In this document: one piece after another, positions 4,200-62,382 of the stretch | Layout of the letters: every line of letters begins with the position of its first letter | Numbering within the stretch: the stretch's first letter is position 1 | DNA from: Styela clava | Taxonomy: Eukaryota; Chordata; Ascidiacea; Stolidobranchia; Styelidae | Assembly: GCF_964204865.1 (NCBI RefSeq) | Contig: NC_135259.1 | Coordinates: 10,178,974-10,242,973, forward strand | Reading direction: 5' to 3' | DNA: 64,000 bases | The notes under the pieces: model-generated | Told to the model about the DNA's origin: nothing | Seen by the model: only the letters and a program-made list of their open reading frames with translations | Databases searched by the model: none | Translations under genes and position numbers: made by a program

Positions 4200-4299
4200 A
4201 TATAGACCCTATGGAATACAATTTGCTTATTCATTCTATGAATTATTTGCATTTTAGATTTCAGTTGGCATATCATTTAATAATAATAGTTCAAATATA

Positions 4300-6963: not shown

Positions 6964-7434
6964 ATGTCTACACCAGCTAGAAGAAGATTAATGCGTGATT
7001 TTAAAAAATTGCAAGAAGATCCTCCTACTGGAGTAAGTGGGGCACCAACTGACAACAATATAATGATATGGAATGCTTTAATATTTGGTCCAGTTGATAC
7101 ACCTTTTGAAGATGGAACGTTTCGATTGACTATAGAATTTACAGAGGAGTATCCGAATAAGCCTCCTTCTGTTAAATTTGCTTCAAAAATGTTTCACCCA
7201 AATGTTTATGCTGATGGCGGAATATGCTTAGACATTTTACAAAACCGATGGAGTCCCACATACGATGTTTCATCGATTTTAACGTCAATACAATCACTTT
7301 TGGACGAACCAAATCCGAACAGCCCGGCGAATAATCAAGCTGCACAATTGTATCAAGAAAATCGTCGAGAGTATGAGAAAAAAGTTTGTTGCATCGTTGA
7401 GGAAAGTTGGAAAGAATGTAATTGTAGATGTTGA
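6964..7434 (+). CDS. UBE2A: Ubiquitin-conjugating enzyme E2, RAD6/UBE2A orthologue
   Basis: A 156-residue single-exon E2 enzyme almost collinear with animal UBE2A/UBE2B. It starts [20 protein letters not shown], identical to vertebrate UBE2A apart from a conservative change. The HPN motif, catalytic Cys88 in [14 protein letters not shown], and the [18 protein letters not shown] block are intact. The known family role is H2B monoubiquitination with Bre1-type E3s, PCNA ubiquitination with Rad18, and N-degron turnover with Ubr1. The C-terminus ends in SWKECNCRC, four residues longer than usual and cysteine-rich. Copy 1, ~2.2 kb upstream on the same strand, is its tandem paralogue. The start is fixed by alignment to the family N-terminus. 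A duplicated splice acceptor in the leader suggests a 5'UTR intron. Confidence 0.96.
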
Positions 7435-15348: not shown

Positions 15349-15489
15349 GTTGGCGGTCAACGACTGTCGGCGGTGTAGGGAAATCCCCGTCGTTGTAAAC
15401 ATACAGGTTCTTGAAAGCTGCTTCAGTGTCACGCACGTGCCAATTCTTGTTGCGGAGGTTTTTGCGCGCTCCACGTTGTTAGCTAAATC

Positions 15490-23453: not shown

Positions 23454-24450
23454 TACTTCATAGTGACACCTTGTGTCCCATAACTCATTGGCTGAGTATT
23501 AGGAATTAGGATCTCTTCATTCGAGGGGTCGCTCTCAGAACCAATCATTGACTGGGATTCAGGGATTGGTTGGGTATCATGAGCAGGCATGTCTTTTACA
23601 GCGTCGTTTTGAGCCAACTCTGTCTCAAATCTTCCTCAGCGGACGTAAGGTCGATCGGCTCATTTTGGATAGATTTTTTAGGATTTTTTATCTCTATTGC
23701 ACAAGATTCTGTCTCATCCGACTCTGTTTCATCAAGAAGATTCCTTAGAGCAGATCCAGCCTGGTTCATGACAGAACTACGCCAAGTTTCAAGTGCAACC
23801 TCGGCTGCTTTTATTTTTGCCTCTTTCTTGGTTGACGCTTCAGTTCCAGAAATTTTTTTATTTTCAAGCTTGGCATCTATTCTAAACCTTGTTTTATGGT
23901 CTGGTCCACTCTTGAACTCAGTATAAACCAGAGGTTGAATATTTCTCTGGGCAATTTCATGTAACAAAGATACTGCGTTTTTTCCTCCTTCAACATTGGT
24001 ACAGGAGGAAACGACGGAACAAACACGGAGGACGAGGAAAATTGTGATATCCGGAATAAAGCCATAGGAAATAAATGATTTGATAATATTTCGAACATGT
24101 TCATCTCCGTATGCTAATTTTGGAACTTTTGCTTGTGGAAGTGAGATAGCTCCGTCTACTCTTTTAATTGCAGGATTCCTTAGAGTAGATCCACAAATTC
24201 GCAAATTTCCAAGTGCAACCTCGGCTGCTTTTAATTTTGCCTCTTTCTTGGATGACGCTTCAGGTCCAAAAAAATTCTGACTTCCAAGCTTGACATCCAT
24301 TCTAAACCTTCTTTTATGGACTGGTCCACTCATTGACTCGTTATAACTGATACGTTGACCGTTTCTTTGAGCAAATTCATGTAACAAACATATTGCATTT
24401 GTCCTTCTGGGATGTCCAACATCGGTACAGGAGAAACAAATATAATCCAC
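23454..24450 (-). CDS. Protein with two dsRNA-binding domains, with a probable frameshift
   Basis: The intact frame (24450-23596) encodes 284 residues with two double-stranded-RNA-binding motifs. The first is about residues 18-84 (ICLLHEFAQRNGQRISY...SSKKEAKLKAAEVALGNL). The second is about 158-226 (VSLLHEIAQRNIQPLVY...STKKEAKIKAAEVALETW). Both keep the family's SGPxHKxRF and KKEA..KAAEVAL signatures. No deaminase, helicase or RNase III domain is visible. The two motifs are also very similar at DNA level, indicating recent internal duplication. The frame ends after EEDLRQSWLKTTL, but the +1 frame continues from about 23630 to a TAA at 23454 as plausible low-complexity coding (ETELAQNDAVKDMPAHD). 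That implies a one-base indel around 23627-23634 or a sequencing error. ADAR-, ILF3- or TRBP-like proteins carry such domains; I cannot choose. The L1 fragment ends directly upstream, so 5' exons may be missing. Confidence 0.65.
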
Positions 24451-24479
24451 TCTAAATTTCTCAAAGCATTATTGATTTA

Positions 24480-26955
24480 TCAAGCAGATATTCTATCATT
24501 CCCCCACATAATATTTCATGTCTCAAGGGATTTTTTTATTACCCCTAAAACTCCAATTATCTTACATTTTATCATAGTTCTCAGTTCAAATTGCATGTCA
24601 AGTATTTTGTCATATTTCACAGAATTTCTAAATTGCCAAACTGCATGTTTACCACGTGCCATGATTATTGATATTGAAATACTGTCTAACTCCTGTGTGA
24701 AAAATTAATTTGATGATGACAAAATATTTACTGGTAATTCACACCAATGCCAAAATCTTTTGACATAGTCACAATCATAAAATAGATGATAGACTGTTTC
24801 TTGACTATTTGTATTACATAGCACACAATTTCCATTATCATCATCAAACCAATATTTTATTTTGCTACCCACTGGCAGCTCATTATGCAAGATCTTCCAA
24901 CACAATTCTTTAGTTTTATTAGATACTGGCACTTGCCATATACTTTTCCATTTGATATTACATGTTAAACCTAAGCATTGTTGTACATGCATACTTTTTG
25001 AAACCACAAATTTCCTAATTTTCTGTTGCAACAAAATGTTATATGCATATTTTGTTGATACATTTTCAGGAATGTCATATCTATCTATTTCAGACCTTTG
25101 ATACAAATCAAAGCCACAATTTTCAGAGGGATTTGAAAATTGGCGATTCCTGCTTAGAATCGTTTTCCAGTTAGTTGGAATATTAGCTCTCAAGTTTCTA
25201 ATCACATTTTCTTCTGTACACATTCTGGCCCTTTTTCTAGAATCAGTTATTCTTTCAAAACATTCCCTTCCATCTATTTTCCTAACCAAATCCAATATTG
25301 ATAAAGAATTAATCTGTGCCAGAGTATGTATTCCTGCCCTGATATATTTTTGTCTTATTACTGCATTACTTTCATTGGGATAATTCGGATTGAACCAAAT
25401 GTTTTCGCTAAGTACCACTTTCTTTGTTTCAGGTGCATTTCTTTGGATTCTCAATTAATTTTCGAACAATTTTTATACTATTTTGGTAAAATAATGGTGT
25501 TGAATCCATACCCCGTGTATTATGTGTTAAGTGAAGCATATCCAAATTGCTTGTACACATATTCGGATGATAATTATCAATATAACATTTTGCTCTCTTG
25601 GCCCATGGACCCTCATTCTGTTTCAACAACTGAAATATCCACTTCACTTGAAGAGCTTCAATTTGAGTTTGAAGATCAATCATTTTTAGGCCACCATCAT
25701 TTTGTTCTGCACAGCAGATATGTTGTCCTATCATTTGTGGCTTGTCATTCCAAAAAAAATTCCATATTATAGATTTCATTTTTTGCATAAATTCCTGCGG
25801 TATAATTTCACATGTTGCCAAATACCCAAATTTTTGACATTAGCATGGACTTAATTAATATGCTCTTTCAACAACAATAGTTAGTCTCCTACCCTTCCAC
25901 AGATTGACTATTTTTTGCATTTTTGTTACAACTGCTGTCCAGTTATCTGTGCATACCTGTTGATTCGATCCTATCCACATTCCTAATATTTTTATTTTAT
26001 CCCTAATAATTTTAATTCCTCTGAAATGCATCTCACTGGGCTAAAACCAATTTTTTGCTTTCCCCACCAGTAATATTTGGGATTTCTCTACTTTTAGTTT
26101 TATGCCTGTAGCTCTGGTATAATTTTCCAACAGTTTCAAAGAGGCATTTATCGATACCTTACTTCCCAACATCAAATTAGTATTAGCTGCATAGCCTTTG
26201 TATTTCTCGGTTCTACCTGTAACATTCTTAAAACCTATTATTGTTTCTTCTTTTCTAATATTACAAGCTAACAATTCTGCAATCAAAGTATATATTGCCG
26301 GTGAAAGAGGGCAACCCTGTCTCACTCCACGTTTTAATTCAAATTGTTGTGAAATATAACCATTTGTAATAATTCTTGCTTCCGTTTGTTTATAAATGTT
26401 ATATATCCAATTTATAAATTTCATTCCAAATCCAAATTTACCAATTACTTTAAGTAATACCTCTCTATCCCGTGTCATACGCCTTTTCCTGGTCCAACGC
26501 CATAAGAGCGAAACCAGTGTTATCGATTCCCGCCTGGAAGATATCATCTCTAATGCACATCACATTTCCATGAATACATCTTCCTTTAATAAAACCTGTT
26601 TGATCAGGATGTATGATTTCAGGTAAAATTTGTTTTAGTCTATTTGCCAAAATTTTTGTGAACAATTTATATTCAAAGTTCATCAAAGTGATCGGTCGCC
26701 AATTCTTTAAATTTTCTCTTTCATCACCTTTATATAACAACACATTCACTCCAGTATTAGCCCTCTTGTGCATCACCCCATTTGCATATGTTTCTATAGT
26801 ATAATACACAATGTGTTTAATGTCATTCCAGAAGGATAAATAGAAATCTTTCGTTAGACCATCTATACCTGAAGACTTGCCTAATTTCATTTCCTTATAT
26901 GTTCCTCAATTTCCGTAATCTGTATATCTTTCTCACTATCATATCTCTGTCGATG
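24480..26955 (-). mobile_element. L1/Tx1-type LINE fragment, ORF2 reverse transcriptase, broken
   Basis: Minus-strand coding pieces give the central and C-terminal parts of a non-LTR retrotransposon ORF2. In order: GKSSGIDGLTKDFY (RT block 0/1); NWRPITLMNFEYKLFTKILANRL; HPDQTGFIKGRCI (26890-26465); RGVRQGCPLSPAIYTLIAELLA and a C-terminal RT/thumb segment (26547-26041); then IIPQEFMQKMKSIIWNFFW, WKILHNELP and CVLCNTNSQETVYHLFYDC (25821-24705). A final piece, HAVWQFRNSVKYDK, lies near 24640. The catalytic YADD is replaced by YAAN (KYKGYAANTNLML), so it is catalytically dead. Frameshifts break it near 26888, 26500, 25850 and 25440. The endonuclease domain and ORF1 are missing (5' truncation), and no clear poly-A tail is seen. 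Confidence 0.9.
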
Positions 26956-41598: not shown

Positions 41599-44500
41599 AT
41601 GGCCACGCCAGGTACGTTAAAAGATATCAAATGAGAAATTTATTTACTTTCTTTCTTTTTAAATTTAGGAATATTTGTCTAAAATATATAAAATAATTAA
41701 AAATATAGAAAGCTCATATTACTAATGAATCATCATGTTTGCCAGCTTCTATGCCATGGCAAGACGCCTAGGTAAACAATTTGGATTTATGATAGATATG
41801 GAGTAAAATAAATACACGTACGATGCACAACTTGCAATATCAAATTACCCTTGCTATTTGTAATTGCGATTAATTGATAATCTTACGATATTTTATTTGT
41901 TTTATTAGTATCGATAAGTGTCGTAGTTATTATAATTATTTTTTCATATTGCAGATCAGAAAATGAAAGTGATGCAAACATGGATATTTATCCAAAGTGT
42001 GGCAACAACGTTGATGATTGCATACCTTATATTATTAACAGGTACCTACCATTATCTTGCAAGCCATGTTCCTTAATATAATCGTTTTCGGTAAATTGGT
42101 TGGGCCCAGAATTACTCGATTATTTATTCGAAGATAATTAATACTTTCAATTCTATTTTTGAAATTGAGGTAAAAATGCAACCAAAACGAGGTGACGAGG
42201 TTGCCTAAATCTTAAATGTGCCTGATTGCTATAGTTTTCTTCGAATGGTTATGTTTTTATTTCTAATTTTAGGCGGTTTAAAATTTCAGTTTTCTTACTC
42301 AATCGAATCTTAAAATATATAATGTCGAATTGCACTCAAATTTTAAATATGATTTCCTTTTGGTTGATGCAGGCCCACAAAGGCAAAAAAAAACGGTATT
42401 TTAACATATGTTGGGCATACCGTGCTTCCCTGAAAATAAGAAAGACTGGGTCGTATTTCAATTTTCTTCCGAAAACTAACACTAGGGCTTTTTTTGGGGG
42501 GAAGGCTTATATTTTCATGTATCAAAAACAAAATTACAAAGTAGAAAATTACGAGATTTTCAAATATACAAAATTTGAAAACCGATATCCATTTACATGT
42601 TTTTATTCAGCATAACTGCAAAACATAGATTATTAATCGTTTAAAACGTGTAGAAGAAATTTCGTGTAGACGTGTAGAAGAAATTGCTATCGACTAGGTC
42701 AAAAAAAATTTGCGTTGTTGACTAGGTCTTATTTTGAAGGGAGGGCCTATATTAAAATTAGTTCAACATTTCAGGCTAGGTCTTATTTTCGGGGAAACAC
42801 GGTAGCTCTTCTTGAATGGAATAGCACCGATATTAAAAATATTTCGGAAATATGCATAATAGTGAACTCGTTTGGCCCCAAATATGTGCCGGAACAATTG
42901 GAGTCAGTCAGGCCATGTGTAATCGTCTTCAGCGACTTCGAATTGAATTTCTGATGCAATTATTCATGAAAAAGTTACTGCGAAAATTTTTCTACCGCGT
43001 AACAAAAACTTCAGTGCATACAATTTACATTACTAATACAGATTGTTAACAGAAGTGTGAATCGACGAAAATTTCCCTACAGTATCACACAATGGAAGTT
43101 ACATGAAAAAGAAATAGCTTGTTCCAAAATAGTAAACTGTGATCTTACGAATCGGGAATTTTGCTGAGAGACATTTTTTTCATATGAACTAAATTGAATC
43201 CTTGTGCTACATAAAATTCTCATTCGATTTATATGTACGGTAACAAATTTAAATTAAAACAACAGTTCGGTGTGTTGGTATAGCACTATGATGTAAACAC
43301 TGAGTACTACTTTTTGAAAATCTGATGATATCTAATTTGTATTCAAATATTGTTGTGCTAACCATCATTCTTTTTAGTGTGGCTTGCTCCGTTCTTTCCA
43401 ATGAACTACGACACAGATGATGACGTCGATGATAATACAGCTGCGATATCGAGTTTGCAAAGCAATCTAAACGAAACTGACGGTAGTACTCTAACAGATT
43501 ATTCAATAGACTAGTGATTTTCGCCGTCAAAATTCATCTTGCCACTCACAATGCTCCAAACGAAACCAATTGCGATAGTCATTTTGATACGAACTTAAGT
43601 GATGAAAAAATCTTTGTTGCTACCGGTATCTCTACCGGCACCAAGTTGGCGGCACTAACTATAGGGCATTTCCAAAAACTTGTAACGCATTGTTGTGATT
43701 TGGTTTGATAATAATACTAAAGTGAGTGAGCAAATATCCTGGGAATCATGAAAAAAAATAGTCTGAAAATCTTTTAAAATCGTGGGGACCACCATACTAT
43801 CCGCATGATATATTTGATCATCGTTTCAATTTCGGCTTGGTATGGGATTGTTGCTTTGCTTATTGGACACGAAGTAGGCCTATAAATCGTTGTTGTTGTC
43901 TTTGTTGGGGCGTTTGGACTTTTTGTGGTAGTTGTTGATGTGGAAAATCGCTTTTATGCGAAACGAATGAGGGCGATTCGATTGACCAAAAAATAAGGAT
44001 AAAAGTTCTAGCGACTTCATTTAATTTTGAGTCCTGAAAATGTTGTCCTTCCACTTTCGTGTTTATACATATTCGAGCATTACTAGATAACAGCGAAATG
44101 AACTTTACGTTTTATGTGATAGTATTCCTTTATTTTAATTTAGAGCAAGTTAACAATAATACAAATAACATCGATGATTTGGAAGAATGGAGGACGGATA
44201 CCGATCGAGAAATCGATGAAATGGTGAATTATTATGAATATATCCATCATACAAATCTTCATCAAAGTATTTGCTATAGTATAACTACTAATATTCTCCA
44301 TTTCTTCATTGTTACTACTATAATGCCCATTTATGCGCACATAAACGATTTGAACCGTACAAAGGCGCAACTAGCGCATAGCACTATAGCTGAGGGTGTT
44401 TTGAATATGAAACAAATAAGGTAATTTTAATGCATATTGTGGTAGATGTAAACTGTTCAAAATAGGCGAATGTGGGAATTTAGCGAAAAGGGTTGGAAAC

Positions 44501-47500
44501 CAATGCGTTAGACTATTGCACCTTTATATATATATATGCTAAGTGGACAATTCCAAATAGAATAAACAAATAAAAACCCACTCAGAAAGATATCCAACTA
44601 ATTCAATGACAACACAAAATACCAGATCGGAAAAATAGTAGTGCAATGATAACCTCACCCTACGATGACACAAAATAGACTTGTTTGGCTTCAAAATCAT
44701 TTGTAAGTGACTTATGATTAATCTAATTACCGAAAACAATATTTCAGCGACCATTTATGCAAACATAAACTATTCCAGTCATCGACACAACACAATGTGC
44801 GCATTTTCCCTTTCCGCGACATCACGTGACGCAGTTTGGTTTCAGATAAACAAACAACATATCATTTGCTACTAATATTGCTCTGATTACCACATCAAAA
44901 ACGATCATTCGATAAAGTATAAACCCTTTTCACCGACACGAAAAAGTTCAGCGTATAGGTTGCACAACAGCTCTCAGTTCAAATCAACAATAGGCCCTTG
45001 TTTATGTGCTATAAATTGCGGGTAATGCAGAATGGTATTTAGGGGGAAATATGAAGTTTGATGACGCTATCGATTTTCAAAGGCAAATATAGAAATTTTG
45101 TTTATAATTACATTAAAATTATTCTAAAAAAATTAACATGTCGGTAAAATGGACACATATATATGTTCTCAGAAACTTTTGTATGACAACTGCTTTTGCC
45201 GCCAAACCATACACTGAGTATGTGTAAATTATGTCTTTCCCAGAATTTGATTTTAATTGATGAATATTGTACGCTGCAAGCATATTATATAATTTTGATT
45301 TCTAAGTCTTGCTTCATAGTAAGTGTTTAGAAGTTCTGTAATTTCACACTAATGACCTATTATTATTTTTTTCATTTCAACAGAATGCTACAATTAACTA
45401 TCAACAAGATGAAATTGACGAATTATACAATCAAACCGATTACTTAAATCAAACAGTCATCGAGCTTCAATCAGAAATTTATGTGTTGGAAAATAAAGTA
45501 AGCAAAAATATCTTGATATGAATTATATATGTTTTTATGATTTTTGAGTTATTACAATGTTGTTTGCAAAGCTGTGAACAGCGACATCAACAAACACTAA
45601 ACGTAAAAATTTTTTACCTCACCAGTTACCGGAGAATTGATTTGACAGTCAAGTGTATTATAATCCCCGATGCCAAAATGCGATATTGACATGCGACGGT
45701 TGGCTAGTGATAAGCTACTATAAGGAAGTGATATAAATAAATAATGGAAACCATTTGGAAACGATACATTGTTTGGGAAGACAAATATATATAGTCCTGT
45801 TCTTATACACATATGTTTTCAAATCTCGGTAATGTAGACATGGCATATATCGCCGGATGAGAACAGAAGGGGCCTAAGTCACAATTTTTGAAATTTCACT
45901 TTTTTCAATATTTTGGGGTTTTGAGCCATGCTCTACATCAGGGGTCGGGAACCTTTTTGGTCAAGAGAGCCATAAAATATACATATTTTCAATTGCATTT
46001 CCGTGCGAGCCATATAACATTTCTTCAATTAATCAGACCTGAAATGTTTACTCGAAAGTCAACACACACAATGTCAATATACATTGAATGTGATTTCTGA
46101 TGCTGCATGTAGGCGCTGCGGGCCTTGAACGGTTGCTCACCTGCAGCCCAATGTGGAAATCTACGATACTCATCACCCTTTTTCGTTTAGACATCTCCGT
46201 AGTGTTTTTAAAACTATATCGCTTTGTGATGTCACAATATATGTTCCAGAATCCCCTTGTTTGTCACAATGCCTCTCTAGTAAATATCTTACATAACATA
46301 GACATGTGCTGGACGCGTGTTTTGAAACGTATTGGGAATTTCCTGCCAAATTCGGCTATAAAAGAGTTTGGGATCTCGTAACAATAGTAAGCTTAGTCTT
46401 AGAATATTAGATTTTTCTGGGAGCCATATGCCGTCACCAAAAGAGCCATATATGGCTCGCGAGCCATGGGTTCCCGACCCCTGCTCTACATAAAGGTTGT
46501 GGTCTTGAAATTCTGAATTTCTCAATAAATTTTTTTTTAGCTGGACTATAATATTTTGTAGAAGTTAATTAAGAACAGAATAGGCCTAAGTTCTAATATG
46601 ATGGACATGGACATCAGAAATAAAATGTCCGAATCTTACTTCTCTGAGAATTTGTTCAGTGCAACTAAGTCACCTAGTTTTACCTTGCATCTCATACAAA
46701 AAATTTCCGTTGTTAAAAACAGAATGGGCCAAAGTTCTTTATGGAGGTAAAAAACAGAACGGAAGTGCCAAAAAATATTGATTACAAAGATATTCCCATT
46801 CACATTAAAATAACGAGAGCTCAGGTCTTTACTAAGTGTGAATATCTAAAAATTCAAAAATAACGAAATTTAGAATGGTTTTTTGCGTTTTTTTTTAAAC
46901 TCAAAATTGTGACTTAGGTCTGTTCTGTTCTAATTCGGCAATATATAGATATATTGGTATGATGAAAATGATGACATTGAAACCGAAAACATCAGCTGAA
47001 AAGTTACATGTATATGCCATACAAACTTGGGATGGACAAGTAGACATTTGCAACCGCAAATTGACGTGTCTTAAATTCTCGATTCGCAAGTACATGGTAT
47101 TTTGGTATCCATAATAAATTGTTTCCTTGATAATGAAGAAATGAACTTATTGAGAAATTCCATATTGTACTTCAAAAAACATTTATGAATTGACATCCGA
47201 TTTCTTAAATATATAAAGCCTTAGTGTACTACAGATCAAAATTGTTTTTCGAACATTTTTAGACACGTTGGCAACAAATTGAAATTATCGCACTTGCAGT
47301 ACGATTGGCTGAACTGGAAAAGCAACAAATCGCGTGAGTATACCGTGCAAACAGGAGCATTTATTTATTTATCGCTTCCAAGTGCTGAGCAATGAGAGGT
47401 CGTCGTCTAGCCATTCATGTGTACCATGATGATGATATGATTTATCACAAAAATATACCCACGGGTTATAAAGTACATTGGTTGGTACACATAAAAAAAT

Positions 47501-50500
47501 TGGTTGAAATAATCAAACGACAATGTCCTGAAAGTCCGAAATATCATCTTTTATCAATTAATTCATTTATACTATTGAAGCGATGAATCTGCCCCGTGAA
47601 TACTTTCCGAAAATGACCGAGTTGCTGGAACATATTTGATTTATATGGTCCTCAATAAACAATACTTAATTTGGAGACGAGAATCGATGATTTTAATATT
47701 TCTCTCTCTGCATTTAGGAGGCCTTTATTTTCATTTCAATACTCAACTTTGTTATTACATTTCCAGGAACGCTGTAGATGCTGCAGCTGGGATCGCTCGA
47801 GCTGACAGAAGAGCTGTTGAGTATGATCGGAGGATTACAGAATTGGAATGCTTCGATAAGAAAATTACAATTCAAGTTGATGACTTGAGTAATAGCACTA
47901 AAGAGCAGTTTTGTAACGTGACTAAATCATTGGGAACAATATCCGGTCAAGTGAGGGATAATCAAGAAATAAACGATGTAAGATTTTTGAATAACAAAAT
48001 ATGTATTGAGAGAGCTTCGCAGTATTTCTGAAAAGGATAGTTTGCATACTTTGAATACCTCCAATAGAATAATTACGTCAGTTTCGTTCTAATAACAATA
48101 TGTATGTAACCAACTGCGAAAATTTCATTTTCATCGATTAACATAGCCTTCGATATCGAATATTCAATTAACGAAAGCTAAGCAAAACCCTGCATTGTTT
48201 CTTGGCTGACGTAAATGACTTATGCAATGTTTTGAAGAATAGATATTATAATGAACAATAAAAAATATATACGATATACTTCACTTTTGATTTGCTGCTA
48301 TTAGTAAATGAATTGGTGAATAAAAAATTTCAGACAAAATGCCGATTATGTGAAAAAAATATTCAATTTTAGCTACACTCAGAATCTTTCTTTTTCTCAG
48401 ATTAGGGACACGATCACAACGGCAAAATTTGAAGAAGTGAATGACACACTCACTCAAATATTATCTGATATTGACAGTATCGAAACTCAGCAAGACGTTG
48501 ATGAACAAAAGCTGCAAGACCTAAACGAGGTGAAGTTGCAATTCAACATTCAAGTAGTTGTTGACTAAATTTTAGTAGAATCAGGTTTTGTTGAGAAGGC
48601 GGTAAGATGACCTCGGCTTCAAGCTCTACATCATGACGCTATTGGTTATTCTCTACCTACGACCTCTTGACTTACGAAAACGTGAATAACATTCTCAAAA
48701 AAATTGCACAAAGTCGAACATGGCAGTCAATAATAATAATTTATTTCCTCACAATACTGAGAATACGAACTATACTTACACAAATTTAAAAATATCGCAG
48801 TCCAGGGTGAAAGAAGACGCCGGAAACCAAATTTCATTCTTTGAAAGCGCTATTTATTATAATAAATAATGAATTCCGCTAATCATATTATCACTATTCT
48901 CATAACCTTAAATGAAATGAAAAATTGATGCAGCTGAACCAAAACACACTAAAAAAGTGGTAAAATATCCTAGGACTTTACAAACTTCAAGTAACCATGC
49001 CTCAAGTGTTGTTTGAAAGTCATACCACGTGGTTTGAATTTTTGTTATTTTTCAGACATTTATAAACGAAACACAGGATCTTCAAAATCAAATAACAGAG
49101 TTACATAATTACACAGTGCAAGTTGCGGGAAATCTTGAACAAGCGATTGAAAATCAGATCGACCATGCTATATGGGCTGTTAACAGGTAAATAAAATTGT
49201 TCGTTACGTTTACGTTTTTATTTATTTATCCCGAACCAGGATTTTAGGGTAAAAACAAATGAAACAAATAGCACCGGTGTTTTTTCTCACAAAATGCTAT
49301 TGATAAAACTGTTTTTGCGGATGACCTGCTTTATAAGGACGTTTGTAAAAGGTATGGATACTACAGTACCTAAACCTTCTATACGTACTGACTATCTCGT
49401 CCGTATTTTATATGCCTCAAGTCTCGTAGACTTCACGGAATTACTTGGTGGTCAGTCGTTTATGTTAACATGGCATTGCATAGTAAATTTTAATTTCTGA
49501 TCATTGTAGTAGTGAGACACAACGTCTGTCATCTTTCTCTTTATGCGGTCCTGTTGAAGTGTAATTGTTATATAATACGATACGAATATTGCATTCATGA
49601 CGTTATTGATTTGTGCAAACTTGAAGTACAAATTGGTCGAAGATTTGTAAGTCCCGGGTTGATTTATAAATAGTCCATTGCTGAAGAATATCGTTCGACT
49701 TCCAACATTCTGATTTTCAGCTTCAAAGAGCAGGACGATATGAGAGAAGCTGCAATAGAAGCAGAACGTATAGAAAGGGAATCTGGATTGCTGAAGCTTC
49801 AGTGTTCATTAGATGAAGTAAATCAAACATTGAACAGCAAAATCGATTCAACCGAACAATATTTGGAGGACTGGACCATGGAACAAGTTAACTTAACAAG
49901 ACAAATGTTAGAAGATGACGTAGGACAATTGCAGAGTCTTGTGGAAGACACAAAAGTATGTTAGAAGTTGGGACATTTCGAAACGAACCATTGTAAATAT
50001 TGATTTTGGCCGGCATAAAAGGCACAAAATGTTTTTAGTGAGTAATGATGATAATAAGGACCTCCTGAAGTATGCGCACCAAGATGGCGCACAACCTGAG
50101 CTCAGGTTGTGCACCAGGTTAGGGTTCAGGTTATGCGACATCTTGGTGCGCATACTTCAGGATATGATGATAACTATTATTTCATATTTGAAATAATCTT
50201 TTTTTTTATCATTTGACAATCCATTTCAAAAGTTGAACACTATCCCACATATGGTTGTTACAAATTCTCATAAATCATATATCATTAAGTTATCAGAGTA
50301 TACCAATACAGATAACAATTTGTGAGAAATATTCAAGTTATCTTCCTTTTAAGTTCGATTTTTTAATGCATCTTCATTATTGATCTGCAACATATATATA
50401 TATATATATATAATAATAATAAAATAACCTTTTCTTGTACAGATTAACATGACCAAACTCATTGATGCCACTGCAGACAATTTACAAGAAGAAATAAATG

Positions 50501-53500
50501 AAACCAACATTGTCGTAAAGAAAGAAGCAGCGACAAGAGAATTACAATACGTTCATGTGAGTTCAAGTCAATGATTGTGATATACTCGTTGGCAGGACTA
50601 ATTTTCGTCCTCTCGAGATTAGCACCTGCGAAATTTTTATTCCGATTCACAACTCACGGTGGGACAAAAAATATTTCCTACGCCAGCTCTTCCCCAACTA
50701 CGGCATAGCACAATTGTTACAGCTGAAACTTTGCGTTTGAAAAGATTTGTTGTCTCTTTTAAAAATTTAGACTCAAACTATTCAGTTTTAGAATTGTGAA
50801 ATTCATACTTGAAGTGTCGAAGCCAAATTTTGATTCCGGTTCCGACTTTGGGAAATTTTAAAACAGAGATTTGACCCCGACTACAAACCAACCGACCCAA
50901 GTTAAACTTTTATTTCCTCACTAATTTGTTTGTTCACAGTCCCATTGATAGCTAGTGCGTTTTGTGAAGGCGAAAATGTTGGCGTGCAAGCCTACACTGT
51001 ATATTTGACGTTATGATGAATGATTACATTGTTAAAAATATAGTTTTGTTTTTAGTTATGTGATCAGATTCATATTGTGAACGCGGAAGTCAATGAAACC
51101 AACGAAGCTTTGGCGTCAAACGTTATAATTTTCACTGACGACATAAATCAACTTAACCAATCAGTAGAAGATCTACAAACAGTATGTTCAACAATTTTGC
51201 AAAATTACTTCTTTTTGAATTTACAGCACAAAACGAGGTCCAATGTATTCAATTGCATGATGCTGTATGTACTTCCTGTGGAAGATTTCCCTCCCATTCA
51301 ATACAGTTTTATAAAACATTTTCCTGGAAATAGAAAAAATATGACATGAGGGTTAAATAATATTCAAGAATTAAACAATTTTTACTTGCGGATGAATACA
51401 AATTCAGATGGCTGTCATTTATAACATAAGTATACTGGTTACCCAGATAATTGGTATCTTGTCCAGCGCACCCACTTATTTCGTTTCGTTGATTTTTATT
51501 TTTCTGCAATACAATTTCAATATGTGGGAAATTCCGTTATTTAAAAAAAGCTTTCATAAGAGAAAATAATAAAGACATTGTATATATATAGTAAACAAAC
51601 ATGAGAGATACTGATATATTGACGCTGAACATGTTATTTTTATGCTTATTTAAATAAATCGGGTGGCAACTGACTCTGATGACCCCTAAAGGTCGTATCT
51701 TTGCCTCCCAGTCATGTATTGAAAACGTCTGTTTATTTGATATTTATATATGTATGTATATATTGTTTTCTGGGTTTGACGAAATAAACTCTCTCTCTCT
51801 CTCTTTCTCTGTCATATATCCATTCCTCTTCCTAACTGTAATTGGTTTTCAAGATACAAGCAAACCACACCACTGAAATAAAAGTTCTACAAGACGGGTT
51901 GTTTGACCATGAATTAACATTTGTCATGACACAACGATCAACGACACAGAGTCTTATTCAACTTCGAAATGAAACCTGTGAATTGGTGAGTATATTGCTT
52001 ATACGTCTCTGGACGCTGTATATGTATGCACCTACATCCATGTCATCACAGATTTCAATCGACTTAAAAATTAGATCGCAGAAACGTATTCTAGCATGAA
52101 ATAGTACTATGCAACGAAACTCGCACTATATACAAGTGCCCTCCAGAATTCGTACTAGGACTCAATGTCACCTTTACACGCGAATGGATGGATATTCATA
52201 TCAAATTATTTTTTACTTTTTGAAATTTGGTTCAAATTTCTGATATTAGTTGAGTAATCTCCGAGTCTATTTTAAGCATTGCTTTTTTGCTGTAGATCAG
52301 ATAATCCATAGGTTTTGGGGCTCTGTAATTTTAAAAAAACAATTTTTAACTCGAGGCAACTTTTATGCAGCAAAACGAAATTTCATCGATGGAAAAGGAG
52401 CATAAATTATTTGATAACAGAATGGATAATGCAGATAAACGACTTACTGCTAATAGACGTGAATTCAAAGAAGATATCGTGAATGTCAAGGCGGACTTCA
52501 CCATTGTAAGTTCGTTCGATATTGCGAAACAGATGTTTTACTGGAGCCAACAAAGGTTTCAATGTGTTTGCTGTCGCCATGTGCTTCTTTACGACTTTAG
52601 TTATTTTGACACTTCATTTTAACCAATGTACGTACAATTGCTTTTAAACTTTCACAGTGGCTAGTAAAGCAAGTAACTTCCACTTTGATTATAAAGATGT
52701 TATTTAAAATGTTTCATCAGTTTCTAGGGGGAAAGTAGAAGTGCCCATATTAATATATATGTGTGAATGCACATGGCCATCAAATACGATTGTGAAATAT
52801 TGGATGATAAATCAATTATTTTGACAAAATACAACTTCCCTCAGCTTATTTCAAATATCTCATAAGGGATTTCGTTTATCTAAATTCTCTTCCACATTGC
52901 TATCCATACACTGTGGATATTCCAGCTTTTGGGCGAAGTTACTAACCATGAAATTCCCGGTTTGTGGGATTTCCCTTCCCTGCAGATGCCACGAAGTGTT
53001 TGTAGTTTTTTTATCAGTCGCTATCTAATATCATCTATTTCTATATTATCATTAGTCTTTTATCAGTAAACTTTTTGGTTTTAGTTGAGTTTATATAGCT
53101 GTTATATATTCCTTTTATTTAGTCTATCGCATTACTGAATCAAAGCAACAACGATGCTCTACAAAGTGCCATAGATGCAGAATTAGCGGTTGCACAGCTT
53201 GTAACAGATCTCGGCGAGAAGTAAGTAGAACTTCTGCTGTAATAAATGGAAATAAAGGCAAAAAGTACTGCTGGCTAAGCAAAATTTATTATTATTAAGA
53301 CTAAAAAATTATTTCAATGTATACAAATTTACGAAATATTCCATTTCGTTTTTTAAGCATTCCCGAATTGTATGCTGCAATTATGGCAATATTGCCTGAA
53401 GCGGGTACTCCAAGGCCAACCGGAGCACCTCCGCCGGGTACGCGTCCTGTCGCCGAAGCCGATTTCCAGCCACCACCTGTAAGTTTGTAATAAATATCTA

Positions 53501-54646
53501 TGTCTGAATAGAAAAAATTGTGAAAGATTCTTTTTGTATATATTAAAGTTTCCATTAGCACAGTGGTCCCTAACCTTTTATGGGTCTCGGCCCCCTTCTG
53601 GCGCCCAAAACTGGACGTTTTGGATTGTGTTGTATTTTTACGACCTTTTATGGAATGCAAAAACAACCAGAGACAAAAAAAAGTCCAAGCTTCTTAGTAT
53701 ACGACTAATGGAAATTTTGCGCTTGGGTCTGCCTCACAAGGTTTTTTATATTAGGCACAGTCTTTAATACAGGTAGACGAATGTCACTGTGAACATCAAA
53801 ACGGTTTTCAGATTTTTTTTTTGATGGTAACAAGATCAGAAAAACCAGATTCGTACATATAGACTGTGACAAATTATACCATCAGTGAAAAAGTTTTTTG
53901 TGCTAAGCAAGGTGTAAGAATACGAAATGCCACTCCATAGCTACATTCAAAAGCGGGCTTTCCCTCCGGCAGAACCCCGAATTTGGCCAATGTTGTTTTC
54001 TTGTCAAATCTAACTTGCTTGGCAGCCAAGAAACCGATGCCAACGTCTTTTACCCGGAGATAAGTTTTTGTCCCAATGGTTTTGAAGTTTAGATGGACGT
54101 AATGATTCATTGCTCGTGCTCTGTCATCTCGATTTACTTTGGTAAAGCCAAAGCCAATGTAATATTCATTCCATTTTTGTATTTTGGGCATTATGATCAA
54201 ACAATTCACGTATAGTCATATAGGAAAGTGAATTCACCCTGTATTCGTAAATAACCCATTCAGATGATTAAACTCAGGGAACTCCTGAACGGGGGATTTT
54301 AGTTTGAAAGAAAAGTATGCAAATGAAGTTGCTTTATGATCAATAGTTGGCCTTGTATCGTGGCCCCCTTGGACTGCTTCGTGGCCCCCTCTAGGGGGCC
54401 ATCGGCCCCCGGTTGAGAACAACTTATTAGCATATCTGTTCAAAAACAGGGTAATATTTATAAATGGAGCTCGCTCATTGAAAAGTTTTTAACTATGCGG
54501 CGAGAGTGAGTAAAAGAATTCTATGTAGACACATAACAGGCGTTTCTGATTTAAAATTTTATTTTTACCAGGGTACAACTGATGATGCGGGAACTACTAA
54601 CCACGATTATGATTATGAATACAATTTCTCAGACTCGGAATCATGA
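41599..54646 (+). CDS. Type II membrane glycoprotein with long coiled-coil-like ectodomain, 17 exons, unrecognised family
   Basis: Exons: 41599-41611, 41955-42041, 43378-43482, 44144-44223, 45384-45497, 47263-47333, 47767-47977, 48401-48529, 49056-49186, 49721-49955, 50443-50556, 51056-51181, 51854-51985, 52371-52505, 53123-53220, 53358-53478 and 54572-54646. Every junction has GT/AG and agrees in phase, giving 658 residues without a stop. Residues 1-12 are cytosolic-like; 14-37 (IFIQSVATTLMIAYLILLTV and on) form an uncleaved signal anchor. After an Asp-rich linker, about 500 residues are Gln/Glu/Asp/Asn-rich helix with heptad-like hydrophobics (for example NDTLTQILSDIDSIE), bearing about twenty N-x-S/T sequons and five cysteines. 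A Pro-rich stretch (TPRPTGAPPPGTRP) and the acidic, tyrosine-rich DYDYEYNFSDSES close it. Ectodomain exons are mostly 38-45 codons and phase 0, suggesting exon duplication. Topology resembles scavenger-receptor-type trimers, but I see no homology. It is probably a cell-surface or secretory-pathway protein; the function is unknown. Introns carry several transposons. Confidence 0.8.
42418..42804. mobile_element. TIR element ending CCGTGTTTCCCCGAAAATAAGA
   Basis: The left end TACCGTGCTTCCCTGAAAAT and the inverted right end ATTTTCGGGGAAACACGGTA form imperfect terminal inverted repeats flanked by TA. The inside contains shortened repeats of GGTCTTATTTT and GGCTTATATT. It lies in intron 2 of the type II membrane gene. 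Confidence 0.65.
45939..46483. mobile_element. Non-autonomous hAT element with perfect target duplication
   Basis: Terminal inverted repeats CAGGGGTCGGGAACC (15 of 15 match) and the 8-bp duplication CTCTACAT (45931-45938, 46484-46491). Sub-terminal AGAGCCATA and ATATGGCTC motifs occur. It lies in intron 5 of the type II membrane gene. Confidence 0.9.
50064..50161. repeat. Small foldback element, copy 2
   Basis: A 98-base near-perfect palindrome: CCTGAAGTATGCGCACCAAG at the left and its inverse at the right. An inner palindrome, CAACCTGAGCTCAGGTTG, is also present. It lies in intron 10 of the type II membrane gene and matches the 39.7-kb copy. Confidence 0.75.
53561..54424 (-). mobile_element. 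Decayed hAT element with transposase remnant
   Basis: It starts CAGTGGTCCCTAACC and ends GGTTGAGAACAACT, an imperfect inverted terminus, between flanks CATTAGCA and TATTAGCA (7 of 8 match). GGCCCCC blocks occur near both ends. The minus-strand frame 54209-53874 begins PKIQKWNEYYIGFGFTKV, like the N-terminus of BED-type hAT transposases, and ends with ECSYGVAFRI, like its later part, so most of the protein is deleted. It lies in intron 16 of the type II membrane gene. Confidence 0.7.
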
Positions 54647-54739
54647 AGTAAATTACTGACACTCAGTTTTAAAATAGACAATACCAGCATTCCACTACCA
54701 CTTTGCCTTTCAACAATACTTCCAAACGCGTTCGCAAAC

Positions 54740-54745
54740 AATAAA
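54740..54745 (+). terminator. Candidate polyadenylation signal of the type II membrane gene
   Basis: AATAAA about 94 bases after the TGA at 54644-54646; it is the first such signal downstream. Confidence 0.5.
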
Positions 54746-55835
54746 TACCATCATAGCCACCGATATTGAAATAGATCGGGTGCAGTAGATGCACTGTTTT
54801 CGTGATATAGAGAATTTACTTTCATATAGCGAAATAGCAATATCCATTCCTCTTAATTGTTGACAATTTTGTCAGCGATGATTTCTGGCGCTTTAATCGT
54901 CATTTTACTGAGATATATATATTGATCTCAACAAGTAATGGGCTAACTACACATATCACTACTACTAGGACTCCCGTCAGTTGGAAAATAGTCTACGTAT
55001 ATTGATATCGGTATCTGCCTTTCAACACTGAATTCTGCCTATAAATTTGTCAAAAGCAAGTACCGTACAAATCGGGTCATACAGCATATATGATTGTTCT
55101 GCTTTTTTACGTATTAATATTATTTATTATTAAAATATTTTAATCACTGTTTACACATATTGTCATCAATAAATGCGAGTATTCTAATCATTTTTGTTTA
55201 TAAAAATATTTTTTTGTTTTAGTAGTAGAACGTATCACAAATATTTGTCGTTTTGTCATTTCTGAATCTTTGACATTAAACTCTGTATTGTGTCAACGTG
55301 TAAACAAAATTTTGATGCCCACAAGTAAAAGTTCGTCGCAATGAAAGCAATCGAAAATATATCGTGCAAAACGTTTGACTCGCTAGCGGTACATTGCTTT
55401 TGGCGTTTCTGGAAGAAGACTGCGAACACGGCCCATTTACCATCAGGCAGGGTCGACTGAAGCTTAGGGTCAAAGCTAAAGCTCCAGTAGTCTCGACATT
55501 CCATTTAAAATTATTCATACTAAGTCTTTTTTAAATTGACAGTATATAAATGAAGACGTGCAGCACTTATATAAGGGGGGTCCAAGGTTTCCGAAACACC
55601 TATGCTTATGAATTACCGATTAACGTTTGAAATGCTATGGTAAATTTTTTCAATGGTTTCAAAAGAGTTTGTGATGGAATTACACTCTGGTAGTATTGTA
55701 TTTATCCACCGCCTCTTAATCGTATCAAAGTTACTTCCATCAGCTTAAATTGTCATTTCAGAATTCTAGATTTAAATATTGTTTTTCCAAACGGCATTGT
55801 ATGCAGAAACATAATTGACTGCAGTAGCATCTAAT
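54746..55835. other. Intergenic, no gene seen
   Basis: Overlapping minus-strand frames at 55256-55518 are short and contain no recognisable domain. Confidence 0.5.
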
Positions 55836-56083
55836 CAGTGGCGTATCTAAGGTATGGCAGCCAGGGCTCCCGCCATGGGCGCCGTTTGGGTAGGGGCGCA
55901 AAAACGGTGTTTTAGTTTTAAAATGTTCCAATAATATAATTCGGAATTAAAAATATCAGCAATTTGTATTTAAACATTAACGTAATTCCAACAAAAGCTG
56001 TTAATAAAAATAGTCGGTCAACGATCAAGGGGGCGCATTTTCAAACGTTGCCATGGGCGCCATTTTATGCAGATACGCCACTG
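55836..56083. mobile_element. Short TIR DNA element (CAGTGGCGTATCT)
   Basis: The left end CAGTGGCGTATCTAAGG and the inverted right end AGATACGCCACTG match for 13 bases. Sub-terminal CCATGGGCGCC occurs on both sides. Flanks CATCTAAT and CACCCAAT are only 6 of 8 identical, so the duplication is degraded. At 248 bp it is non-coding and hAT-like. Confidence 0.7.
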
Positions 56084-57224
56084 CACCCAATTATCGTATA
56101 CCCCCAAAAATACGCTACACCGCCCCCCCTATATGGTTCATACATTTACGAAAGAGATCTCTGTTACACTTACAAGAAATGAATGTATTGTTAGGTCAAA
56201 AACGTTGTAGCTTACTATCAGTTTGCGTAAATTCAATTTAAGGGTCAGCGAAAAATACAGGACCATCAGGTCAGTGGTTCGTCAACCATGTCATATATAA
56301 CGAACGATACGCGGGCGCATGCTGGTTACATTTAAAACAATAGCAAGTTAGTTATTCACTTGAAACACCTATTTTGAAATGCTAGAAATTGCTGCGAGTA
56401 ATATCGAAGTAATAAACACAGAGCCTTTGCCGAATTTTGAAGGTTTTGTTTGTCAGTTTGTTTGTTTTTTCTTCTATGTCAGAGTGACCAAAATAAATAC
56501 GATTGATGTTTGATTATATGTTTCCTTTATATCACAACTTTGTTCACAGATCAACGGCCTAATCCTATTGTGTACCATGACTGCTGTCCGGATCCTAGTG
56601 TTGGCAGAGAATGCGGCGAATGATACATATATATCGATTCAGATTTAATACATAATTTAACATGTCCTGTATGCATCTGAACAAATTTTTCTGAAAGTTG
56701 CCAACTCTAACCGATGAAAACAAAAAATATTATAATATTAACGCTATTAATTTTAATGATGTAATATTTCGTAATTCAACAGAATGGAACATCATTATGA
56801 AAAATAGTGTTGTGATAAATCGAAAAATGATCTGTGGTATAATAATTTTTCCAATTAGAAAATCACTTTGCCACAATATATATAGGGGGCCCATGAAGTC
56901 TTAAAATTGCAAAGGGAATTTATAGATACCATATATTGTTTTGGCCCTAACAGATGTATTAAATAAAGTAAAAATACTGATTATAAAACAACAAACCTGG
57001 TTAAGATACATTGAGAACGGACTTCAAAACAAAATTGAAATTGTAAAGAGACTTTACGAACACCCATATCAAGTAAGTCATTCTAGGTACATAAAGCTGC
57101 AATTAATAAGAGAATATATAAGCATAGATACAATTCATTTCTATCACTTGTGTAGATGAATGAAATCAGGAAAAACATAGATTGCACATACAGTGTTGAT
57201 TAAAATATCACAAATATTTTCAAA
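56084..57224. other. Intergenic, no gene seen
   Basis: AT-rich sequence after the TIR element, including the 3' flank of EXOC4. Open frames at 56698-56904 and 56941-57159 are AT-biased with no domain. Confidence 0.5.
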
Positions 57225-60200
57225 TTAATTATCTTCTTCTTCAAGTTGAAGTTTAGCAGCTTGTTCACTTTTATGAACTTGCTCTCGTATGATTTCTCTC
57301 AACCGCTGAATTCTCGCAAGTCTTGTACTTTCACTTCCGCTACCGGGTCGACTCCTGTGCAGTAATTCTACAGCTTGTACATAATCATCTTCTTCAAATT
57401 GAACTCCCTGTTCGACCACTATGCTCTGAATAAGAAAATAAGTACTTGCTGATGATATTAGTAAAAGATATTGTTTGATTGGCACTTCGTGCTAAAAGTT
57501 TGGAAGGAGCTTGCCATTGCATCCCTGGTTACCCTGCACACGTTTGAACCTTGTCGGGGTATCTGTGTGTCGAGGATTACTGGCATCCATCTTTGTCATA
57601 GGGCAGTGGTTCCCAACCCCTTTATGGCTCGCGACCCGCTTTTAGCACTCCCCTGCTCCCCATTCCGGTGGTATTTAGAGTGTTAATATGATTGGTAGAT
57701 TCCAAATCAAATTATGTTCAAACAATTCATGCTCAACAAAGTGCTGTGGAATGACCTCATCAAAGAATGTAATTAGGAAGGACTGGGAGTTTTCGTGTGC
57801 GGGAAAGTGTAGAATCAGTTCTACGCCTAGCCTCCTGCCCCTCCCCAACATCTCTGTGGCAATGGGTCCCGGTTGGGAACCGCTGTCATAGGGTGTGTCA
57901 GAGTATTAATTAGGTCTATTTTTGTCATGGGGTGATCCATATAACTGCAGATCAGCCGAAATGAACCAGCCAAGAGACAGTTCATCACAGAAATTATGAA
58001 ATGAATAATGTGGCAGTGAACACAACGCACGTATATAACTTTTGGTCCAACATAATATATCCGAATTTATGTCTAGTTAGTTACCTGTAGGTCATCAACA
58101 GAATGATATAACATTTCATAATACAATCTTGCAGAATCTAGATGGGATTCTCGAGACATAGTAGCATGTGTGATAACTTGCTGTAACGCGAAGATGTTTC
58201 TGCAAAAAAGGCCAAGATAATAAAAATGTGATCCAATATCCACACGAACAAGTTGACAATTGTATTAAAATTACTGGCATATTCACAGGAAATTTGCTTG
58301 AAACAAGGTCACACACATTCAACCAGAAGTAAAGTTATGGGTTGCCACTGCAAGAGCTATTGAAACTAAGCAGATGTATGGTGGTGCATTGTGCACCCGC
58401 GAAACAGTTACGATTACGATGAGGTGAATCTATCGCACAAAGTATTAAAGACTTCTGATATGAAATTATTACCCACCGGCACATTCTTTTTATTCCAGAA
58501 TGTGTAATTCTGTTGATAAATCTTGATCCATGAATTAGGATAGCAGATATCATGTGACCCAGTCCTTCAAATACGTAGCTCTGTTTGTGAGGTTGTAATG
58601 CAGAACGAAACACTTCATCCATGGATGATATGACTGAAGCAAGCTTGATGACCTATTGGATTAGGTGAGATCAGACGAAACTTGGTTAAATTGATTGACA
58701 ATTGGTATCAACACCAAATTTCATTACTACTGAAGTTGCCTAGGCACATTACACAAAGAAAGCGATATATTCCTATAAATATACTATTCAAAAATATTCA
58801 AATTTAAAGCTTGGTATAAGATACAAATTCTTTGGTCATCTTTACTTAGTGGTGGGAGAGTATCTTTTCCTAACAGGTCAACTGAAAGTGAACGCCCTGA
58901 TCTATGAATTGACAGTTGGGCAGACCATTTGGACAACGTCAAACTTAGTACCAACTGGGCGTTTTAACAAATTTTGGGCACAATAAGGCTGGCACATGCA
59001 GCCAACAGAAGCAGAAACATACCCTGATAATATATTACATATTAGCATTTGCCAATGTCTACTCCTCTTTTGAGTATAAGTACAATATTAAGTTTAAAAT
59101 AACAAGTAGGCTAAGGCTACTATAATAATATTCTAAGGTTCTATCTTATTAAATCTTTAAAATCATGTTACAGCAAAAATGAAATTTAACAGCAAATCTA
59201 AATATCTGAATTCTAGCTATAGATTCTTCAAATAATAAAATTCCATTGAAGCTGAATTCTCTTAAAATAATTCTTTCACACAACTTCCATCTGGTTAATA
59301 ATAAGTCTTACCTGTGCATCCCGTTCCATATTATCGATGGTTCTGATGTCAAAGTTGCTCTTTTTACACATTGGAATCAAGTAGTAAAAACAGTGAATTC
59401 GAACTTCAATATGAAGACACAATAAACACACTTCACTCATACTATTATAATCTCTACAGAGTTGATTCAACATAAGCATTGTGTCCTGAGGCAAAAAAAA
59501 AAAATATTGATAAAAATAAAATTTCATACTGAAAAAAAAACATTATTATGGTATACAGAAATGAATTGTTTCAAGCAAGGTTCAGTTTATTACTTCTTGT
59601 AAGTTGTATCAAACTTAATGAATGTAAAATACTTAAATTGCGCTTGCGTTGAGTGGAATAAAAAGTAGTGTTTGATATTGACTTCAATTAATATAACAAA
59701 ATACTTTTCCAATTAGGTACAGAGTAAGTAAATAAAGAATGAAACCTACTCTATAGCAGTATTTACCATCCCTATTTGATAAGAATAATTCTTCCAATGA
59801 AATTTTAGAATTGAAATATATATATTCATGATTAAAATTGCATATTTCAAAAGATATTTTAAATTCAGCCATATTGTAGGCAGAGATTCCTCCAAGTAGT
59901 AAATCATATTTCTGTGTAAATGAATAAAAAAATCTTTTTTGTCTATTACCTGTGGAGCTGTTGGATTAATCTCAGTGAGCAGAAGATTAAGTCGTTTGAC
60001 GAACCATTGCAAACTTTCGTGCAAATTTGCAATAGCGGTAAGGTCAGTGACATCTTCTACAAATCCACCAGTTGGTATTGGTTCATCCCCTACTCTCGAC
60101 ACAAAATATTGACCTTCTTTATAAAAATCTTTGAGTAACTGATGAGAGTATTTATTATGAGTATTCGTTTTTTGTACGGGTCGTTGAACGATTGCCCAAT

Positions 60201-62055
60201 TCTCCAGATTTCTTAAGAATTTATTAGAATCGGCTTCCCGAACCCACGAAGCACTGATAATTCTTTGATCTTCAGACTGTGGTTGCACTACTCCTCTGTA
60301 CGATTGAATCAAAGTTTCCTTGTATTCATGTAACAGAGAACAAGCCATTGCCAAAAACTGGTCGTGATATCCTCCTAAATTTGTCATGAGTGAATGTAAG
60401 TCCCACATGCATTGATCAACAACAACCGCACTTTGAAGTAATGAGTTGCAAGATGAATTCAGTTTTTTATTGCTAGATGTATCCATAAGGGCTTTCAGGG
60501 GATCGGTGACTTTACTTGAAGCGTCAAAACTTTTCTTCATTTCGTATTGGATCTGCCTGATGAAAACATTTTGAATATAATCAGTGATGAAATCATTGAG
60601 CAGACATTTTCTCCCTCCGGAGTAATGCATTTCACTTTCAATTTCTTTAATGAAATTGTTGAGAGGTCCAAAAATGAGAGTAATATTCCTTGAATTGGGT
60701 TTGCAAACTTTTTGAGCTGTGATATTATGGTCAACTAGTTCTTGAGTGCTTGCGTCTTTAGTACCAGCGTTTATTCTTTGTTCAGCTCTCTGTTCACGTA
60801 AGTAAGTATTCATTGATATTGCATGAGAAGATGCCTCAAAACGAAAAAGCTTAGCAACACGAGGACGGGTTGCACGCTTTCTTGAAAAATGGGATGCAAA
60901 ACTGCCACTTTGTACATCATTAAAACCAGTGTTTGCTAGTTGAGAATTAGCAGATGCATTGTCAAAATCTAAATACTCTTGTAATATAGCTTGCAGCACA
61001 GATTGGATTTTAGACCAAACCTCCTCCATGTCATAAAGCTGGACATCCATTGAACCATCTGAATTTTTGCTCGCAGATTGAGAAATTAAATGTAATATGT
61101 GTTCGTGAGCACTGGCAATGCATCGAAACTTTTCAAACAGCTTTTCTAATAATTGTAAAAGACGTTCTGGGTTATCTCCTTCGTCACCTTGCTTGTAGAA
61201 AAGATCAGTAATTTCTACAGTAGTATGTGTAACAATCATATTTATATGCCGATCCATTTTAACTTTGGTAGCTTCTATGGCATCTGGAATCTTGCCTAAA
61301 AGGCCGAGAGAAAGCACCAATATTGCCATTAGACGAAACGGATCTTTTTCTGGATCTTTCGTAACATCTTCAAGCTTTTCAACATCGTTTAAATCATATT
61401 TCACTTCAGAATCTCTGTCACTTGCTTTCACAGAATTAAAATACAGTTGTTTGTGTAGCTCCGTTATAAAGCCCTCATGCATTGTTACTCTGCGACTCAA
61501 CAATTCATTTCTTATATCATTCAAGGCTTCAACCTTAATTAAATCATGAGTGAGTAAACGAAGTATTTTTAGAATCAATTGAGTAGCGTGAAGGTAATAC
61601 TTTTGTTTCATGAACTGATCGATATTCTCAGGGGCTGCTTTCACCTCCTCAATATCATCGAGAAGTTGTAAAACTCGTTTATACTTGACACCTTCCTTCC
61701 ATAAATTACGAAGCTCATCTTGTCTACAATGTAACAAAGATTTACATTGAAGAAGGCTTTCTTTCACATGTTTTATGCGGCTACGAGATTCAGAAATCCG
61801 TTCGCCAATTTTTCCAAACTGCTTGATCGTCTTGGCAAGTTCTTCATAGTTTATTGCAACCATTTCATCAAGTTTTTCATCGTTCTCAGTGAAAGCTTCT
61901 TCCAATCTCTCTTTTTCTTGATCTCGTTGACGGTCATCATCGCTTGATGCCAATGTCCGAATAATGGACATCAGTAATCCTGACGGATCTCTAATAAATC
62001 CAGCTCGACCAACACCAGCTACGCTGGCACGAGCTTTTCCGTCCGAGGAATCCAT
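57225..62055 (-). CDS. EXOC4: Exocyst complex component 4 (Sec8)
   Basis: Five minus-strand exons: 62055-59950, 59485-59312, 58652-58477, 58199-58085 and 57425-57225. All junctions are GT/AG and agree in phase, giving 923 residues (human about 974). Sec8 is a subunit of the octameric exocyst, which tethers secretory vesicles to the plasma membrane. Family blocks in order: [19 protein letters not shown]; the coiled-coil [113 protein letters not shown]; and the C-terminal [25 protein letters not shown] with RLREIIREQ. The first exon alone carries 702 codons, so most of the introns typical of vertebrates are absent while four survive in the last quarter. The long frame runs past the first donor into intron 1, which is not coding. 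The ATG at 62055 lies ~18 codons before the conserved RDPSGLL. A hAT element sits in the last intron. Confidence 0.96.
57604..57885. mobile_element. Non-autonomous hAT element with perfect target duplication
   Basis: The termini CAGTGGTTCCCAACCCC and CGGTTGGGAACCGCTG form an inverted repeat, and the 8-bp duplication TCATAGGG flanks both ends (57596-57603, 57886-57893). At 282 bp it lies in the last intron of EXOC4. Confidence 0.9.
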
Positions 62056-62382
62056 GGTTTTCCCAAGGAATTCCTTTTATGTTAGCTATAACTGAACAGA
62101 GAAAGATAAAATATTATGCTACAGTGCTATGTTAGATAACGTAGGAAGGTAAATCAGAAAAATGCAGCATAGAATCAATCAAACACTTCACAGGTATAAA
62201 TCATGGAGACAATTTTCTTCATATTATATATGACACATTTATATGCCTACTACTCCATACTCTGAACTTTGAAGGCTTTGCAAAAGCATTATTAATGCAG
62301 GATGATTATTACATCGCTGAAATAAGCAGAGACATTCAAAGTGCGGTACAAACCAGAAAAGAATTATATTGGTTGTAACTTA

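Follow-up and report, generated by a model that had tools for sequence, protein, structure and literature searches.

What kind of gene, if any, lies in the seventeen small open segments at positions 41599-54646 of a 64,000-nucleotide stretch of the Styela clava genome (contig NC_135259.1, positions 10,178,974 to 10,242,973; the whole stretch is called the window here)? An initial annotation had joined these segments into a gene for a type II, heavily glycosylated coiled-coil surface protein. We rebuilt the gene, compared the exon chain and its product with chance expectation, and weighed the result against known proteins. It is almost certain that the 17-exon gene exists. For its product, we put at about one in two the probability of a type II, N-terminally anchored glycoprotein with a coiled-coil homo-oligomeric rod and a Pro-hinged, probably sulfated acidic tip, acting as a spacer or tether.

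Gene structure and tests of the exon chain

Rebuilding the exon list base by base gave 17 exons on the + strand (41599-54646), 1977 nucleotides (nt) in all, encoding 658 residues and a stop. As the initial annotation had stated, the 658 codons contained no internal stop and the joins no phase conflict, and 16 of 16 introns had GT-AG ends. The introns measured 137 to 1765 nt, and G+C content was 38.9% in the exons versus 33.6% in the introns. Of the 16 donors, 14 ranked higher than 94% of the GT sites scored, the two weaker ones following exon 3 (87.3 percentile) and exon 12 (89.6). Acceptor percentiles were lowest for exon 13 (67th) and highest for exon 8 (99.8th). A polyadenylation signal, AATAAA (54740-54745, +), was found 94 nt past the stop, the first of four AATAAA/ATTAAA-type hexamers between the stop and 55400.

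To score codon usage, a table was built from 1565 codons in four open frames elsewhere in the window. In 16 of 17 exons the called frame outscored the other two, the exception being exon 2, which encodes the hydrophobic anchor. Each exon was also set against 2000 random open segments of matching length taken from elsewhere in the window, and 10 of the 17 exons scored in the top 5%; exons 1, 2, 5, 9, 12, 13 and 17 fell outside it, with exon 2 average (equalled by 1052 of 2000 segments) and exon 13 equalled by 538.

An exon-chain finder based on dynamic programming, using this codon table from other genes and generic, untrained splice matrices, was run on the gene strand and on three controls: its reverse and both strands of 27.6-41.0 kilobases (kb). 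The non-coding background, from 27.0-41.0 kb, includes the control stretch and may depress its scores; the reverse strand and random sequences are free of this fault. With strict sites, the gene strand scored 102.3 at penalty 8 (controls, 4.1, 9.0 and 14.3; at most 12.4 in 12 random sequences) and 149.0 at penalty 4 (13.7, 23.4 and 29.6). Only 7 and 8 of the 17 exons, respectively, were exact because the strict threshold bars several of the annotated sites. With loose sites, the score was 228.9 at penalty 2 (controls, 57.2, 70.1 and 86.3; 14 of 17 exons exact, 12 extra or changed), 184.3 at penalty 4 (24.4, 39.1 and 50.6; 13 exact, 7 extra or changed) and 150.0 at penalty 6, the best setting (8.0, 15.4 and 31.0; 15 exact, 2 changed). 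The annotated chain scored 210.3, 178.3 and 146.3 at these three penalties, slightly under each optimum, and since the finder's best chain exceeded it (150.0 versus 146.3), single junctions are provisional. At the loose settings, exon 4 was missed at all three, exons 1 and 13 at two, and exons 6 and 12 at one.

An error in part of the chain, which would be compatible with every other reading, is the most probable alternative, at about one in four: exon 13 may be skipped, exon 4 longer, the start elsewhere, or an extra 3' domain exon present. The finder's best setting omits exon 13 and extends exon 4, other settings swap exon 1 or add exons, and some acceptors are weak; being phase 0 on both sides, exon 13 could therefore be skipped. 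Conversely, exons 5-17 are in frame and contain 20 of the 22 N-x-S/T sequons of the product, spread over 10 of these 13 exons, and the polyadenylation signal closely follows the stop. Exons 1, 4 and 13 are the least certain parts of the chain.

Topology, sequons and rod

The product has the single N-terminal signal anchor that the initial annotation described. Hydropathy was maximal (2.06) at residues 24-42, within a hydrophobic stretch spanning about residues 14-40, and the top window starting after residue 45 reached only 0.97. Lys 7 and Lys 9 precede the anchor, and residues 41-60 hold six Asp and no Lys or Arg; under the positive-inside rule, these flanking charges predict a type II topology. 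Beyond residue 40 the net charge is -82.

About twenty sequons had been reported. We counted 22 (19 NxT and 3 NxS) versus a shuffled mean of 6.9; none of 5000 shuffles reached 22, and the reverse motif occurred 6 times. Hydrophobic residues recurred with z scores of 8.4 at a period of 3.5 and 9.5 at 3.6 residues (0 of 300 shuffles), and a fitted heptad register scored 93.5, whereas 60 shuffles gave at most 40.6, in keeping with the annotated coiled coil. By exon, the 3.5 period was weak in exons 6, 10, 11 and 13, with exon 10 strong at 3.67. Core a/d positions were occupied by 1 of 21 sequon Asn and by 9 of 29 other Asn (Fisher p 0.031), as expected if glycans point outward. Residues 51-594 contain no Pro, and an unbroken helix over residues 51-605 would measure 82 nm, which is an upper bound because the heptad register breaks. 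Five Cys residues (185, 206, 342, 432 and 514) could link chains. Together, these features and the agreeing shuffling controls support the predicted type II topology, a high potential for N-glycosylation and a rod that is largely coiled coil.

The ectodomain exons had been described as mostly encoding 38-45 residues in phase 0, as if one helical exon had been duplicated. This description was overstated: just 6 of the 17 exons (5, 8 and 11-14) are of this size with phase 0 at both ends. Among 78 pairs of exons 3-15 compared with shuffles that keep the hydrophobic pattern, the mean z was 0.14, and a single pair, exons 3 and 11, was matched by no more than 2 of 200 shuffles, roughly the number of pairs expected by chance. 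Duplication was accordingly rejected, and the similar sizes may simply reflect coiled-coil exons.

Oligomeric state and the C-terminal tip

Near the membrane, two [IV]xxNTxx[IV] motifs (VDDNTAAI and VNNNTNNI) place N53 and N74 at position d of the fitted register; at least two such motifs arose in 6 of 2000 shuffles. As described in PMC12933892, trimeric coiled coils repeatedly contain [I/V]xxN heptads whose Asn occupies position d. Having two such heptads, the rod predicted here shares this feature, which hints at a trimer over a dimer. The annotation had named both a trimer and a dimer.

Residues 595-658, the last 64, contain 11 Pro and the run DYDYEYNFSD, matching the annotated Pro-rich hinge and acidic tail. 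Sulfotyrosines usually cluster as two or three in a span of six residues, as described in PMC9372746. Tyr 647, 649 and 651, in the acidic run of the tail, fall within such a span in a predicted secretory-pathway segment, making DYDYEYNFSD a plausible tyrosine-sulfation site.

Searches for relatives

Profile searches with the 658-residue product returned six Pfam families at E ≤1, all under curated cut-offs, the best being PUMA_CC (E 2.1e-06; 28.1 bits versus a cut-off of 30.1), and five NCBIfam rows, also all under curated cut-offs, led by SMC (22.3 bits versus 567.35). The best of five PDB matches at E ≤1 was a fragment of a trimeric autotransporter adhesin (2wpq_A, E 0.004). In our judgement, the matches in all three databases are what any coiled coil yields, and such weak generic similarity agrees with the annotation of the protein as unrecognised.

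A tblastn search of the window with the product found its own exons alone at E <0.05, the next match (E 0.060) lying in a Sec8 gene described below. Among 69 open frames of at least 40 residues overlapping 54650-59800, all inspected by eye, none resembled a globular C-terminal domain; the profile search covered just the Sec8 frame and the frame at 57225-57491, and the latter matched no family. Searched alone, exon 10 (78 of the 658 residues) had 118 pattern matches in prokaryotic contigs and 24 in viral contigs, with no confirmed relative, a negative that says little given that these collections, as we understand them, hold no animal genomes. Rfam gave no match within the window. Narrow literature searches showed no paper on such a protein among the matches listed, which does not prove absence.

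Exon-by-exon layout

All exons lie on the + strand. Exon 1 (41599-41611) is a 13-nt start exon encoding MATP-, with a donor at the 99.9th percentile. Exon 2 (41955-42041), encoding the cytoplasmic tail and signal anchor, was exact at all three loose finder settings. The anchor ends in exon 3 (43378-43482), which continues into the Asp-rich juxtamembrane stretch and the first Asn-at-d heptad; exon 4 (44144-44223) carries coiled coil and the second such heptad, and its acceptor is uncertain, the finder preferring 44123 (7 residues longer). Exon 5 (45384-45497) encodes coiled coil with 4 sequons, and exon 6 (47263-47333), which has a weak acceptor, a rod segment without a clear heptad period of its own.

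Coiled coil is encoded by exon 7 (47767-47977; Cys185 and Cys206), exon 8 (48401-48529) and exon 9 (49056-49186). Exon 10 (49721-49955; Cys342) is the rod segment with a period closer to 3.67 than 3.5, and exon 11 (50443-50556) has a weak heptad period. They are followed by the coiled-coil exon 12 (51056-51181; Cys432) and by exon 13 (51854-51985), a rod segment with Cys514, a weak acceptor, a codon score near zero and a weak heptad period. Exon 14 (52371-52505) is coiled coil without a sequon, exon 15 (53123-53220) encodes the rod end, exon 16 (53358-53478) the final helical stretch and the Pro-rich hinge, and exon 17 (54572-54646) the acidic Tyr-rich tail DYDYEYNFSDSES and the stop.

Among 25 of the 73 inverted-repeat pairs in the window were pairs in introns 10, 5 and 2 of this gene (50044-50181, 45845-46946 and 42418-42804), perhaps small mobile elements; the intron 10 pair has 56-nt arms that are 80% complementary.

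Neighbouring genes and elements

The neighbours of the coiled-coil gene are ordinary. A Sec8/EXOC4-like gene (59746-62076, -) with a 776-residue uninterrupted frame is convergent with it, tail to tail, and seems intron-poor for Sec8/EXOC4. An uninterrupted FKBP-TPR frame of 487 residues lies at 15487-16950 (+). Two uninterrupted ubiquitin-conjugating enzyme genes (4297-4761 and 6964-7431, +) share 72% identity over 152 residues and are either nearby duplicates or retrocopies. At 23596-26905 (-), a frame with two double-stranded RNA-binding domains adjoins a zf-RVT frame and fragments of reverse transcriptase spread over two overlapping frames; this stretch is probably a degraded non-long-terminal-repeat element.

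Discussion

The sequence shows the chain of exons, the anchor and the sequons, the period of hydrophobic residues in a rod free of Pro, the Pro-rich hinge and the cluster of tyrosines; we infer a protein that would sit at the cell surface, oligomerize, use its sequons and be sulfated. A cytoplasmic tail of about 13 residues would be followed by the hydrophobic anchor and then by a mostly helical coiled coil of about 550 residues, which would associate in parallel as a homo-oligomer, with a trimer probable and a dimer possible. N-glycans would be carried on the outer faces of the rod, and the Pro-rich hinge would present the acidic, probably tyrosine-sulfated tip, which would bind an extracellular partner protein, giving the whole a role as spacer or tether. 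The receptor, matrix or recognition role suggested in the initial annotation is hypothetical.

Several points weigh against this reading. The fitted register has 15 breaks in residues 51-600, and exons 6, 11 and 13 have little heptad period of their own; therefore, the rod may consist of segments or depart from coiled coil in parts. The Asn-at-d motif was chosen after inspection and has only two copies. Sulfation and glycosylation are predictions, and the 658-residue product has no homologue in Pfam, NCBIfam or PDB. In addition, Golgi residents too can combine a short tail, a single anchor and coiled coil in the lumen.

GOLIM4 and GOLM1 are type II proteins with a luminal coiled-coil stem and an acidic C-terminus, a layout that the product resembles. 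A Golgi-resident protein of this kind, acting in trafficking and not at the surface, would account for the short cytoplasmic tail, the single N-terminal anchor and the acidic C-terminus, and yet we regard it as unlikely. The six Pfam families at E ≤1 include no GOLIM4/GOLM1-type family, the 22 sequons and the helical span of about 550 residues exceed those known for these proteins, the tyrosine cluster sets the product apart, and the hydrophobic stretch is long for a Golgi anchor.

The nearest known layout is that of PLVAP (PV-1), whose type II anchor, coiled-coil ectodomain and Pro-rich C-terminal region appear in the same order in the predicted product. A dimeric rod that, like the PLVAP homodimer in diaphragms, would form a diaphragm or surface lattice by contact between the Pro-rich C-terminal ends of anchored rods, seems somewhat less probable still than Golgi residence: no PLVAP family appeared among the Pfam matches at E ≤1, although Pfam presumably contains a PV-1 model, the product has 22 sequons versus 4 in PLVAP, its tip carries an acidic Tyr cluster, and the Asn-at-d heptads favor a possible trimer. 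Finally, a chance assembly or decayed pseudogene is very improbable, for although the gene model is predicted from sequence and the codon scores of 7 of 17 exons are unremarkable beside those of random open segments, 658 codons run without a stop or frame break, control strands scored 8.0 to 31.0 versus 150.0, and the sequon and heptad signals lie far beyond shuffles.

The anchored, glycosylated rod with a probably modified tip that we favor belongs to a gene that is well supported yet uncharacterized, with a known layout and a family that is not proven. If the tip is sulfated and exposed, the protein would clearly exemplify a rod in which a modified peptide tip replaces a globular head, and the gene would lend itself well to testing lineage-specific surface proteins made up of coiled coil and glycan.

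Class A scavenger receptors also have a type II, N-glycosylated coiled-coil stalk, which the predicted rod resembles; they add a collagen-like, SRCR or lectin domain, whereas the product had no Pfam match to any of these and its tail exon ends in a stop. Its likeness to trimeric coiled coils with Asn at d is generic coiled-coil similarity, and homology is not claimed. With PSGL-1, the predicted protein shares a flexible end segment holding three Tyr, like the sulfotyrosine cluster of PSGL-1 described in PMC9372746. That cluster is N-terminal on a mucin-like protein, whereas the Tyr of the predicted protein lie at the C-terminal end of a helical rod, with sulfation a prediction. A more specific proposal, which we hold only tentatively, is a lineage-restricted surface tether: a glycan-shielded trimeric rod of up to about 80 nm with a sulfotyrosine tip at its free C-terminus, the reverse of PSGL-1.
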